Below the pieces are notes generated by a model. The model did not search any database. It had not been told where the DNA came from and was given only the letters and a program-made list of their open reading frames with translations. Below are positions 1 to 3,156 of a DNA stretch of 7,396 nucleotides, one piece after another (positions within the stretch are counted from its first letter, which is position 1; every line of letters starts with the position of its first letter). Origin of the DNA: an uncultured Bacilli bacterium (lineage in GTDB: Bacteria; Bacillota_I; Bacilli_A; RF39; UBA660). The DNA lies in assembly GCA_934101745.1 (NCBI GenBank), contig CAKOSD010000050.1, positions 1 to 7,396 of the forward strand, in the 5' to 3' direction. The translations under genes and the position numbers were made by a program.

Positions 1-852
1 AATAAATACTAATAAAGGAATTAATAAGACAATTAAGAATAAATAATTATAAACATCCACTATCTTAAATATATGTTCTCTTTCTTCATAAGCCTTAATA
101 TTATCATTTATAATATATTTAAAAGCCTCAACATAACTAATATTAAGAAGACTAGCTATCTTTAAACTTTGATAAATTGCTAATACTTCCTTAATATTAC
201 TACGTTTATAAAACTTATAATAAGCATCTTCTAAACTAATATTATGTTTTAAATCCTTTAAAATCTTATCTAACTCATCCGTAATATCCCCATCTAAATT
301 ATTTATAGCATAACTTATAGCATTATCAATACTCATTTTTTTATTTAAACCATAATATATATACTTAGTACTTATAAAGACATCTTTAACTATTCTATTA
401 GTTCTCTTAATATATAAATATTTCCAAAATAAATCAGGCAAAAAATAACTAGCCAGAAAAACTACTATAAAAATAAATGGACTAGCAGGCAAAATACTTA
501 AAACTACCCCTAATAAACATAAAGATAAAGTAATAATAACTAATAATAATTTAATTGTAAAATAATCTACCGGACTAGTTCTATCTCTATTAATTTCTAA
601 AATATATTTATCATATTTAAGCGATAATTTATTAACAAAATTATAGTGACTTAACCCGGCACTTAAATTATGAATAACCTTAAAAAAACTATCCGTAATA
701 TTAGTTAAAATCGAAGTATTATCTTTAGGAATATCTAAACTAAATTTACTTATTCGATGAACTTTTTTTAAAGTATTAGCAAGTTTTAAAAGAAAAATAC
801 CTATTAATATCGCTATACAAGCAATAACAATTTGAATTACATAAATTGGCAT
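1..852 (-). CDS. TadB-like pilus/secretion inner-membrane platform protein (3' end cut off by window)
   Basis: An open frame of 284 codons begins at an ATG at 852 and runs off the left edge without a stop. A GAGGTG Shine-Dalgarno lies 5 nt before the ATG, inside the end of the preceding cpaF-like gene; only 2 nt separate the two genes, so translation is probably coupled. The protein has an N-terminal hydrophobic helix (about residues 3-23) and a positively charged linker. A central pair of membrane helices follows (about 98-120 and 124-142), then a soluble helical segment (about 150-260) and the start of another membrane helix (266-284). The soluble part has the layout of a T2SSF (GspF/TadB/TadC) domain, including YGLNKKMSIDNAISYA, the ELDKILKDLKHNISLEDA helix-turn and the KEVLAIYQSLKIA helix. 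TadB-type proteins form the membrane platform that couples the CpaF/TadA ATPase to pilin assembly. Position directly after cpaF favours TadB over TadC. Family assignment is by pattern and context only. Confidence 0.8.
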   Translation of the reverse strand, partial: MPIYVIQIVIACIAILIGIFLLKLANTLKKVHRISKFSLDIPKDNTSILTNITDSFFKVIHNLSAGLSHYNFVNKLSLKYDKYILEINRDRTSPVDYFTIKLLLVIITLSLCLLGVVLSILPASPFIFIVVFLASYFLPDLFWKYLYIKRTNRIVKDVFISTKYIYYGLNKKMSIDNAISYAINNLDGDITDELDKILKDLKHNISLEDAYYKFYKRSNIKEVLAIYQSLKIASLLNISYVEAFKYIINDNIKAYEEREHIFKIVDVYNYLFLIVLLIPLLVFI

Positions 853-854
853 AA

Positions 855-2057
855 CTACACCTCAAAAATATCATCTAAGGCATCATTACCATTATTTTTT
901 AACTTTTTATAAATATAATTACTTTCTTTTATTAAACTAAAAGTATTATTTTCATAAACAAAGACATCCCTTAGTTTTTGCTCTGCTATTTCTTTAATGC
1001 CTGTTACTCTAATTTTAGTATCTGCACCTTTTTCCATATACACTAGAATATCAAACCCTGTATAAATACTATTTACCACCGTTTCTTCTTTCATATCTGG
1101 ATTTTCTAATAAAACGTTAGTAACTAAATTTTCTAAAGTAAATTTACGAATATCAAAACTAGAAATAATTCCTTGTTCTTTATTAACTAACTTTAACAGT
1201 GTATTAGCATTTTTATTAGCATATATTAAGTATGAAGGACATAAAGCCTCAATTACATTAATATCGGAAGTATTAGTACTTACAAGTTGATGAGTACTAT
1301 CTAAATTTTCTTTTAACCCCGCATAAACTATTCTTTCATTAGTTGGAATAAAATTTAATAAAGTGTTAATTAAAGTTCTTTTTCCACTACTCTTATTCCC
1401 ACAAACTAAAATATTTAATTTAGCCTTAACACAAGCCTCTAGAAATCTGGCCATATAAGGAGTAAGTGTTCCTAAACGAATTAATTCTTCTATACTTTCT
1501 AAAGTCTTATCATTCTTACTAATTGTAAGTACCGGATTAGAAACCATAGGGGGTATTAAAAGTGTAACTCTCGCATCATCTAATGTTTTAAAAGAAATAG
1601 AAGGATCATCTAAAGAAATATTTAAGTTGTTTTTACGGGCTAAATTAGTAACCGTTTTAATAACATGTTCATCATTAATAAAAGAAATAGAAGGATCTCG
1701 ATGATATCCCGTATTAGTTAAAACATAAACTAAACTAGGTGAATTAACAAATATCTTCTTAACCGAAGAATCATTCATTACCTCCGTAATTGGACCAATT
1801 CCATATATTTCATTATCAATCAAATTATATAAATACTGTTTTTCTAAAGTACTAAGATTTAAAGACTTAGTATATTCATCAACCTTACTATGAATATCTA
1901 CTTCTTTAAGGCCCAAAGAAACTTCATCAATTAAACTAAAAGTTATATCATTTTTTATTTTTTCTAAAGTCTCTTTATCCTGAAATATTTCATAATCATT
2001 TAATTTTAAAAGATTACTATTTGTTATATTAAAAGCATTTGCCAAAGTTTTACTCAT
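855..2057 (-). CDS. CpaF/TadA-family secretion ATPase homologue with degenerate catalytic motifs (probable pseudo-ATPase)
   Basis: 400 residues, close to the usual CpaF length. The N-terminal half is typical of the family: YGIGPITEVM (85-94), IFVNSPSLVYV (102-112), the DDARVTLLIPP stretch (160-170) and LGTLTPYMARFLEACVKAKLNILVCG (195-220). The expected role is to power assembly of Tad/Flp-type pili at the inner membrane. The catalytic motifs are eroded. The P-loop GNKSSGKRT (220-228) has Arg227 where Thr/Ser should bind Mg. The acidic pair of the Asp box (family ..IVTIEDAAEL) reads YAGLKENL (245-252). The Walker B GEVRG reads ANKNA (280-284), losing Glu and Arg. The His box STLHANS reads SSFDIRK (299-305). 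About 15 residues with conserved arginines are missing near 253-273. The frame is intact, so this is not an ordinary decayed pseudogene. The ATG at 2057 follows GGGAGG and overlaps the upstream gene by 8 nt. A structural or regulatory role is inferred. Confidence 0.85.
   Translation of the reverse strand: MSKTLANAFNITNSNLLKLNDYEIFQDKETLEKIKNDITFSLIDEVSLGLKEVDIHSKVDEYTKSLNLSTLEKQYLYNLIDNEIYGIGPITEVMNDSSVKKIFVNSPSLVYVLTNTGYHRDPSISFINDEHVIKTVTNLARKNNLNISLDDPSISFKTLDDARVTLLIPPMVSNPVLTISKNDKTLESIEELIRLGTLTPYMARFLEACVKAKLNILVCGNKSSGKRTLINTLLNFIPTNERIVYAGLKENLDSTHQLVSTNTSDINVIEALCPSYLIYANKNANTLLKLVNKEQGIISSFDIRKFTLENLVTNVLLENPDMKEETVVNSIYTGFDILVYMEKGADTKIRVTGIKEIAEQKLRDVFVYENNTFSLIKESNYIYKKLKNNGNDALDDIFEV
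1589..1607. repeat. 19-bp direct repeat inside the cpaF-like gene, copy 1
   Basis: The sequence TAAAAGAAATAGAAGGATC occurs here and again at 1679-1697. The copies are exactly 90 bp (30 codons) apart, in the same frame, and both encode DPSISF (residues 151-156 here). Flanking bases are unrelated. Confidence 0.85.
1679..1697. repeat. 19-bp direct repeat inside the cpaF-like gene, copy 2
   Basis: Second exact copy of the repeat at 1589-1607, encoding DPSISF at residues 121-126. The first two thirds of the N-terminal domain therefore carry the same hexapeptide twice. Confidence 0.85.
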
Positions 2058-2820
2058 CCTTATTACCTCCCATTATATCTGCTGCTAAATTAAGCAAGGC
2101 CGTATAATCACTTTGATAATGTTTAAGAGCTTTACTATTTAAGGTAATTATCTTCCCATCCATTATCTCTTTTTCCATATCAGTTATATAAAATTCATTA
2201 GAAATATGATAATCGATATTAGCCTTAATAATACTTTTTATATCATAAAAACTAAAGTATTGTTTTAATGGGTTAACACTTTCATTTAATAGAATACGAT
2301 ATTTATTAATATTTAAATTATCAAATAAAGTAACTAAATTTTTCGTGTTTTTTAAATCCATTGGACAATTAGTCGTAACTATAATCGCCATATCACAAAA
2401 ATCAAGAGCAAAGACATTTATTTCGTTTAAAATATGTGTCATATCAATTAGAATAACATCGTATATAAAAGATGCTTTTTCTAAAATAATATTTATTAAA
2501 GAATTATTAATTTTATTAAAGTCTCTTGGATCAGTAGAAGCCGGCAATATATCAATATAATCATCATATTTAACTACATAATCATTTAAAGAATCATAAG
2601 TATTATGTTCAATATCATATAACATATTACAAATATTCTTTTTATAAGGTGTATTTAACATTAAAGCCAGTCCCCCATTGGTTAAATCTAAATCAATAAG
2701 TAAGACTTTTTTATTCATACTTTCTATTATTCCGGCTAGATTAACCGTTAAAGTTGTCTTTCCAACTCCGCCCTTACCACTAGTTATACAAACTACTTTT
2801 CCTTTACGTAAATTTTTCAT
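2050..2820 (-). CDS. CpaE/TadZ-type MinD/ParA-family ATPase
   Basis: 256 residues with the deviant Walker A of the MinD/ParA/CpaE class: GKGGVGKTT at 15-23 with the signature Lys16 and catalytic Lys21. The switch I segment VLLIDLDLTNG (39-49, Asp43/Asp45) and the Walker B strand YDVILIDMTHIL (120-131, Asp126) are both present. The DMTHILNEINVFALDFCDMAIIVTT run resembles CpaE (DLPRSLDE..ALDRAD..VLVTT) more than MinD. CpaE/TadZ proteins place Tad pilus machinery at a membrane site. The N-terminal receiver domain of many CpaE proteins is absent; the protein starts directly at the ATPase fold. I see no clear MinD-like amphipathic C-terminal tail. The ATG at 2820 follows a GAGGG about 9 nt upstream. 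The gene is first in the operon with the cpaF-like and tadB-like genes, whose order is that of Tad loci. MinD or a ParA partition protein is less likely given these neighbours. Confidence 0.85.
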   Translation of the reverse strand: MKNLRKGKVVCITSGKGGVGKTTLTVNLAGIIESMNKKVLLIDLDLTNGGLALMLNTPYKKNICNMLYDIEHNTYDSLNDYVVKYDDYIDILPASTDPRDFNKINNSLINIILEKASFIYDVILIDMTHILNEINVFALDFCDMAIIVTTNCPMDLKNTKNLVTLFDNLNINKYRILLNESVNPLKQYFSFYDIKSIIKANIDYHISNEFYITDMEKEIMDGKIITLNSKALKHYQSDYTALLNLAADIMGGNKDE

Positions 2821-2857: not shown

Positions 2858-2887
2858 ATTATATCACGACCTTTAAGGTATTGTAAA
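2858..2887 (-). promoter_or_regulatory. Promoter of the cpaE-cpaF-tadB-like operon
   Basis: On the minus strand TTTACA (2887-2882) is followed after 18 nt by a perfect TATAAT (2863-2858) preceded by TG at one base distance (extended -10). Transcription would start near 2851 and give a leader of about 30 nt before the ATG at 2820. Two CTATCT copies 14 nt apart lie just upstream (about 2903-2922) and could be an operator, but this is weak. Between 2923 and 2978 I see nothing definite. Confidence 0.7.
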
Positions 2888-3080: not shown

Positions 3081-3099
3081 AATATTATATTGAATTTTG

Positions 3100-3135
3100 A
3101 AAAACATCTATTCACAAGGTTGAGTAGATGTTTTT
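3100..3135. terminator. Bidirectional rho-independent terminator shared by two convergent RNAs
   Basis: AAAAACATCTA (3100-3110) pairs perfectly with TAGATGTTTTT (3125-3135), an 11-bp stem around a 14-nt loop. T-rich ends follow on both strands, so it can stop the plus-strand small RNA and the minus-strand peptide mRNA. The stem arms recur at 3064-3072 and 3299-3308, so alternative pairing is possible. Confidence 0.8.
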
Positions 3136-3156
3136 CGGTTTGACTTAAAGTCAGTA

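Follow-up and report, generated by a model that had tools for sequence, protein, structure and literature searches.

A 7396-bp, A+T-rich stretch of DNA from an uncultured Bacilli bacterium (contig CAKOSD010000050.1; this whole stretch is the window) encodes, between a cpaE-like and a tadB-like gene, a protein of the CpaF/TadA family whose ATPase half lacks most of the expected catalytic residues. Secretion and pilus ATPases are usually treated as motors defined by their catalytic signature, and the locus raises the question of what such a protein does in a Tad-type operon. On balance, we favor the answer that the protein, here named CpaF*, represents a clade-wide branch of the CpaF family that likely does not hydrolyze ATP and is predicted to form a scaffold between CpaE and the membrane proteins TadB/TadC.

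855..2057, minus strand: CpaF*, predicted pseudo-ATPase of the CpaF/TadA family (400 amino acids, ATG start, frame intact)

By descent, CpaF* is a CpaF/TadA protein. Its match to T2SSE (PF00437) scored 38.1 bits against a cut-off of 24.9, as expected of the VirB11/FlaI/PilB/PilT secretion NTPase superfamily, though it lacks their catalytic signature and the match stops at residue 244, ahead of the Asp box. The best PDB match was CpaF (E 1.7e-16), the predicted structure was CpaF-like over residues 7–400, and the gene lies in a tad neighborhood; the NCBIfam model TIGR03819, at 80.6 bits and under its cut-off of 373.15, counts against membership. With Caulobacter CpaF (the Tad/type IVc pilus motor; PDB 9e24, 8rjf, 8rkd), CpaF* shares the predicted fold, the cpaE-cpaF-tadB order, the P-loop Lys, and a conserved N-domain, but it lacks the Mg-binding Thr, the Asp-box Glu, the Walker-B Glu, the His of the His box, the arginine finger R347, and some of the Central Loop stretch. 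Because such a protein passes the Pfam cut-off, a T2SSE/CpaF annotation is no proof of a pilus motor. As in pseudoenzymes generally, of which pseudokinases and inactive AAA subunits are examples, the fold appears kept and the catalytic residues are lost, in a pattern conserved across the clade. No description of a CpaF/TadA protein with a dead active site turned up in the open literature searched, a scope outside which most subscription papers and preprints fall, and a pattern search of IMG/VR returned 31 matching stretches, none encoding a relative.

Catalytic positions were located in an alignment of 201 sequences, consisting of the window protein, 120 homologous proteins (the best of 1942), and 80 loci (the best of 264), and all counts refer to these. 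We distinguished the window clade (n = 87; the window and P0001–P0086, 50–94% identical), a sister group (n = 8; P0088–P0092 and L001–L003), the single sequence P0093, and canonical relatives (n = 103; 26 proteins and 77 loci). P0087 and P0094 are short, carry the same signature at the residues present, and were excluded from the 87. Members of the window clade were absent from the best 80 loci and from the genomes sampled for the order (385) and the family (386), which we take to be RF39 and UBA660. The clade is common in protein database contigs (CpaE cluster P0207: 321 contigs, up to 370 kb) and was unmet in the searched genome collections.

In two reports on Caulobacter CpaF (PMC12019362; PMC11300603), catalytic roles are assigned to Walker A (K287/T288), the Asp box (E312), Walker B (E357), and a trans-acting arginine (R347), and N-domain residues R217/R223/D215 are described as nucleotide contacts; in the second (PMC11300603), E357A abolished phage infection. 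Positions 1152–1400 of the window encode residues 220–302 of CpaF*, which stand opposite canonical GGTGSGKTT, IEDAAEL, GEVRG, and TTLH/TTMH. Together with the N-domain contacts, the features are:

1569..1595, minus strand: N-domain nucleotide contacts, S155 (D215), K157 (R217), and R163 (R223, kept in the window)
1374..1400, minus strand: P-loop GNKSSGKRT, residues 220–228, with Lys226 kept and the Mg-binding Thr replaced by Arg227 (1377–1379)
1302..1325, minus strand: former Asp box YAGLKENL, residues 245–252, with Gly247 as the Glu312 equivalent
1242..1265, minus strand: site of a 14-residue shortening, residues 265–272, with most of the Central Loop/alpha9 stretch gone and no arginine finger
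1206..1220, minus strand: former Walker B, ANKNA for GEVRG, residues 280–284, with no Glu at E357 (87/87)
1152..1163, minus strand: former His box SSFD, residues 299–302, with Asp302 for His

The first-pass annotation had described GNKSSGKRT with Arg227, YAGLKENL, ANKNA, and SSFD as replacements of canonical motifs, and all were found as claimed within residues 220–302. Its wider claim of near-total motif replacement stands for five features and needs amending at the P-loop, where Lys226 is kept (87/87 in the window clade, and the same Lys in 8/8 of the sister group) and the change from Thr to Arg is not universal. Measured against a functional motor, CpaF* retains the GK of Walker A (GxxxxGK[TS]) with Arg227 in place of T/S, and it lacks the Asp-box Glu (G247), the Walker-B Glu, the His box (D302), the arginine finger R347, and a full-length Central Loop stretch.

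The same pattern extends through the window clade. The P-loop Thr position was R in 75 members, K in 9, T in 2, and I in 1. Gly occupied the Asp-box position in 87/87, where canonical relatives had Glu (103/103), and Asp the His-box position in 87/87, where they had His (103/103). E357 was present in 102/103 canonical relatives; its counterpart in the window clade varied between alignments (63 Asn, 23 Lys, and 1 gap in one, a gap in the 201-sequence alignment) and was never Glu or Asp. Scoring five sites (T/S288, E312, R347, E357, and the His, in Caulobacter CpaF numbering), we found all five changed in 85/87 window-clade members and four in the remaining 2, against none changed in 102/103 canonical relatives and one in 1/103. 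The sister group had four changed in 8/8, every member having Asp for E312, no Arg at R347, Ser at Walker B, and Thr for His, with T/S288 as Ser. P0093 had two changed, R347 and the His (now Asp), and kept both Glu residues, with T/S288 as Ser. Relatives with canonical motifs, which had been named at the outset as grounds for refutation, were seen only below 40% identity to CpaF*. At the level of sequence, then, the catalytic motifs of CpaF* are lost. Because these ATPase residues are replaced or lost, CpaF* likely does not hydrolyze ATP, a prediction that draws on the residue counts and the published mutants.

The arginine finger is missing, and the segment that should hold it is shortened. 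From the end of the Asp box to the Walker-B Gly, there are 24 residues in 86/87 window-clade members (23 in the other), 24 in 8/8 of the sister group, and 28 in P0093, against 38 in 100/103 canonical relatives. The deletion originally proposed for an arginine-bearing stretch is seen in the 14 fewer residues, and Arg is absent at the R347 counterpart, with the exact gap position uncertain. In the aligned sequences, R347 stands opposite a gap in 87/87 of the window clade and 8/8 of the sister group; counted back ungapped from Walker B, the position is Arg in 0/87, 0/8, and 103/103 of the window clade, sister group, and canonical relatives, respectively, and Ala271 in the window. For P0093 the counterpart is Lys, both ungapped and in the 201-sequence alignment, and a gap in another alignment. 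Whether R347 was deleted or substituted varies with gap placement, and no Arg occurs under either.

These changes fit a single origin of the window clade, the sister group, and P0093, with stepwise loss. A tree of the CpaF N-domain, from which the ATPase half was excluded, placed all three in one group (support 100/99), and the grouping was the same with further pilin-less loci added (100/98); an independent CpaE tree of 14 rows joined the window to the sister loci (100/99). Common to the three lineages are the shortened segment without arginine and the loss of the His. The Walker-B Glu is lost in two of them, the Asp-box Glu has become Asp in the sister group and Gly in the window clade, and 85/87 window-clade members no longer have the P-loop Thr/Ser.

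The degenerate protein appears to have remained under constraint, though a relaxed one. Length was kept, with 84/87 window-clade members at 398–400 amino acids. Nine window-clade representatives shared 119 invariant positions, divided almost evenly between the N half (58) and the C half (61), and 21 of these, including G247, Y276, and D302, differ from a residue that 70 or more of the 77 canonical loci share. The ratio of nonsynonymous to synonymous substitution (dN/dS, Nei-Gojobori method) was determined for sister-genus loci L001–L003 only, the window clade being compared as proteins only. For cpaF*, the L002/L003 pair gave 0.125 (N half 0.127, C half 0.123). The canonical cpaF median was 0.087 (range 0.032–0.144) over 48 pairs with a proportion of synonymous differences (pS) of 0.2–0.5, taken from the 120 most similar of 695 pairs above 78% identity. 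Compared with these, the sister-genus values for cpaF* point to purifying selection that is weaker than on a working motor. The catalytic loss is thus fixed in the clade (87/87 and 8/8) under purifying selection, the dN/dS values (0.125–0.40) coming from the sister genus only, and the expectation of conserved replacements with dN/dS well below 1 holds within that scope. The central proposal of the first-pass annotation, a maintained pseudo-ATPase and not decay in one genome, agrees with the clade-wide residue loss and with the retained frame, length, and gene order.

The strongest rival is slow decay: under weak constraint, cpaF* and tadB would be drifting towards loss, and selection to retain the operon, if any, would act on CpaE. 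In pairs with L001, dN/dS was relaxed, at 0.398 (L001/L002) and 0.364 (L001/L003) for cpaF* and 0.55–0.68 for tadB, against 0.14–0.16 for cpaE (over all sister-genus pairs, cpaE 0.13–0.16, tadB 0.26–0.68, and tadC 0.17–0.38). The C-domain also evolves faster: at matched N identities of 0.45–0.90, the C/N distance ratio was 1.16–1.52 in the window clade versus 0.70–0.95 in canonical relatives, an order reversed above 0.90 (0.95 for 2 window-clade pairs versus 1.29 canonical). Between the window and L001/L002, identity was 40% for cpaF and 40–44% for tadB versus 55–56% for cpaE, which appears to be the best conserved of the three genes. Many genomes of the order matched only weakly (E about 1e-4 to 1e-12) and are therefore probably without a Tad-type cpaF of the CpaF* kind. 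Decay sits poorly, however, with the fixed replacement residues, with the low L002/L003 dN/dS that is alike in both halves, and with the nearly universal full length of listed clade members down to 50% identity, although this last point comes from a protein database made up of predicted open reading frames (ORFs), in which broken copies would be under-represented. We regard slow decay as improbable, though deserving of weight.

The relaxed dN/dS of cpaF* and tadB and the faster C-domain count equally against a maintained scaffold, and further observations do the same. The scaffold role is one that we infer. Both platform contacts reported as likely in PMC11300603, D208 and the Central Loop (E331–G334), are lost: most of the Central Loop stretch is gone, and D208, an Asp in 100/103 canonical relatives and 8/8 of the sister group, is Asp in 1/87 of the window clade and lost in the other 86, which argues against the canonical mode of touching TadB/TadC. 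In a subgroup at 57–59% identity, Lys-Asp or Asn-Asp occupies the old Walker B, so that an unconventional acidic residue is possible there, as it is in the sister group, with Asp for the Asp-box Glu. In the N-domain tree with support 100/98, the long branches of both degenerate groups meet, as a program warning noted. The structural model of CpaF* reached a predicted template modeling score (pTM) of 0.59, and because its input alignment included canonical CpaF, the predicted fold is not independent evidence. Finally, a few short ORFs are among those listed (P0061, P0084, P0086, P0087, and P0094).

The proposed scaffold would connect the products of the two flanking genes:

2050..2820, minus strand: CpaE/TadZ-like MinD-type ATPase (256 amino acids; Walker A KGGVGKTT at 2752–2775 intact)
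1..852, minus strand: TadB-like platform membrane protein (284 amino acids visible, the rest beyond the window end)

The cpaE and cpaF frames overlap by 8 nt, and cpaF and tadB are spaced by 2 nt. Across the loci, cpaE lay upstream of cpaF in 80/80 and tadB after it in 76/80, the other four (L009, L050, L068, and L080) having less than 0.5 kb of contig beyond cpaF; in L077, tadB was 1.4 kb further downstream. KGGVGKT, within what we take to be a deviant Walker A, was kept in CpaE of the window and 13/13 homologues examined, and CpaE may be active. TadB homologues measured 327 or 329 amino acids in 76/86 listed, the remainder being mostly short.

For 58 loci, the contig extends 1.5 kb or more upstream of cpaE, and in 49 of them a pattern search placed Flp- and/or TadE-like ORFs within 2.5 kb upstream of that gene. 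None was found upstream in the other nine, namely L001 and L002, with a dead CpaF, and L017, L058, L062, L070, L071, L075, and L078, with an intact motor. Like L001/L002, these seven canonical Tad loci of the order keep cpaE-cpaF-tadB without pilins found upstream, but unlike CpaF*, their motors have intact catalytic residues (7/7), and pilin loss is therefore wider than motor loss in the order. Whole-genome searches for TadE matched 0/3 genomes of the L001–L003 genus and 17/20 canonical genomes, the three misses being those of pilin-less L058, L071, and L078. Those for Flp likewise matched 0/3 in that genus; of the seven pilin-less canonical genomes, five gave no match and two a marginal one (E 1.3e-4 and 5.7e-4, ~30 residues), and 8/8 pilin-bearing controls matched at E 8.4e-36 or better. 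All three examined genomes of the genus carry dead CpaF, and 2/3 have a prepilin peptidase. The CpaF*-bearing sister genus thus differs from canonical Tad systems in that pilins were not found, nor was a pilin-like pattern seen in the window, including upstream of cpaE. As far as tested, the dead motor occurs only where pilins were not found. The suggested role of hexamer partner finds no support where a working pilus motor is meant, since Flp and TadE were not found in the sister genus and most of the platform-contact loop is gone. Separately, several lineages of the order seem to possess a pilin-less Tad module with intact CpaF, CpaE, and TadB.

Within the favored reading, a course of events can be proposed. 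An ancestral Tad machine would first have lost its pilins. The arginine finger, some of the Central Loop stretch, and the His box would then have disappeared from the motor, in all three lineages. Loss of the two Glu residues would have followed, that of Walker B and that of the Asp box, the latter to Asp in the sister group and Gly in the window clade, with P0093 as an intermediate keeping both; and last, in most of the window clade, the P-loop Thr/Ser would have gone. A ring or monomer would still fold, and its retained P-loop may hold nucleotide or phosphate, with energy or switching supplied by CpaE. The resulting CpaE-CpaF*-TadB/C assembly would have a job other than Tad pilus extrusion. 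In a bolder version, which we hold to be less likely than not, the pilin-less motor has turned into a non-hydrolyzing, possibly nucleotide-sensing ring, the fixed center of a TadB/TadC membrane complex that CpaE drives and that has a new, non-pilus job. The basic residue at the P-loop Mg site (Arg/Lys in 84/87 of the window clade) could then replace Mg2+ and lock a nucleotide-bound state. The graded series from canonical loci through pilin-less loci with an intact motor, P0093, and the sister group to the window clade makes this order of losses testable. If true, CpaF* would be a natural separation-of-function mutant, in which the role of CpaF beyond ATP hydrolysis and the pilus-independent roles of CpaE and TadB/TadC would come to light.

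Alternatively, CpaF* might be a regulatory subunit in a mixed ring with a second, intact Tad-like ATPase or PilB. The ten T2SSE matches in sister genomes G001–G003 comprised four PilB/GspE-type, three VirB11-like, one CpaF*, and two at CpaF* positions, so that each genome encodes an intact CpaF/VirB11-like ATPase alongside PilB/GspE-type ATPases (two in G002); among these matches, no genome showed a further Tad-type CpaF of the CpaF* kind beside the dead copy. In G001, the one neighborhood examined, the intact ATPase lies in a second Tad-like locus, L128 (G001:C1:18000-33000), with two membrane-protein-like products and an RcpC/CpaB-like protein (24.7 bits, Pfam cut-off 28.8). The locus further encodes DUF5411 proteins and proteins of 1176 and 1459 amino acids. 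Candidate partners are thus at hand, as the first-pass annotation had supposed of a second active CpaF encoded elsewhere (3/3 sister genomes). Nothing ties this ATPase to the dead copy: it occurs in 26/27 genomes tested, dead-CpaF (3/3) and canonical (23/24) alike, and is a general feature of these genomes. The second ATPase of G001 also has membrane-protein neighbors of its own, and a mixed ring would call for a trans-acting arginine finger on CpaF*, which has none. We consider a mixed ring quite unlikely.

It is more doubtful still that CpaF* remains an ATPase in which residues fixed in the clade, such as Asp302 or a shifted acidic residue at the old Walker B, make up an unconventional catalytic site. 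The P-loop Lys is universal in the window clade, and some subgroups have Asp/Glu just past the old Walker-B position, but the window protein has neither the Mg ligands (Thr, Asp-box Glu) nor the catalytic Glu nor the arginine finger, and its ANKNA contains no acidic residue. A sequencing, assembly, or alignment artifact confined to this genome can be set aside almost entirely, because relatives from many assemblies carry the same signature (87/87) and nothing was found in its favor.

The remaining features of the window concern the operon's surroundings. All listed genes are on the minus strand, in the order presumptive parE (partial), presumptive parC, ylbD-like, a small ylbE-like ORF, a gap of ~590 bp, cpaE-like, CpaF-like, and tadB-like.

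2858..2887, minus strand: possible sigma-70-type promoter of the cpaE-cpaF*-tadB operon (TTTACA-18-TATAAT, 11/12 match, extended −10; consensus match only)

This candidate ends 38 nt upstream of the cpaE start. The retained promoter claimed earlier may correspond to this 11/12 match at 2887–2858, but promoter-like matches near cpaE were not enriched, with 8 found against 6.1 expected from shuffles (standard deviation 3.0). The ylbE-cpaE gap contains no convincing gene and has nested inverted repeats (3042–3053/3313–3324, a perfect 12 nt; 3055–3072/3300–3317, 89%) and a hairpin at 3097–3138 followed by T-rich sequence. An Rfam scan of the window gave no match; the repeat-bearing gap may hold two terminators, a small mobile element, or an RNA of an unknown type. 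Elsewhere in the order, proteins with a YALW/YSLW-type N-terminal region, presumably SipW-like, are encoded at L062 4955–6250, L075 7838–9133, and L126 16226–17989; Pfam gave no match for those of L062 and L126, the two scanned. The L062 and L075 genes lie directly upstream of a pilin-less cpaE, that of L126 lies ~7 kb from pilB in a dead-CpaF genome, and these proteins could be alternative surface products.
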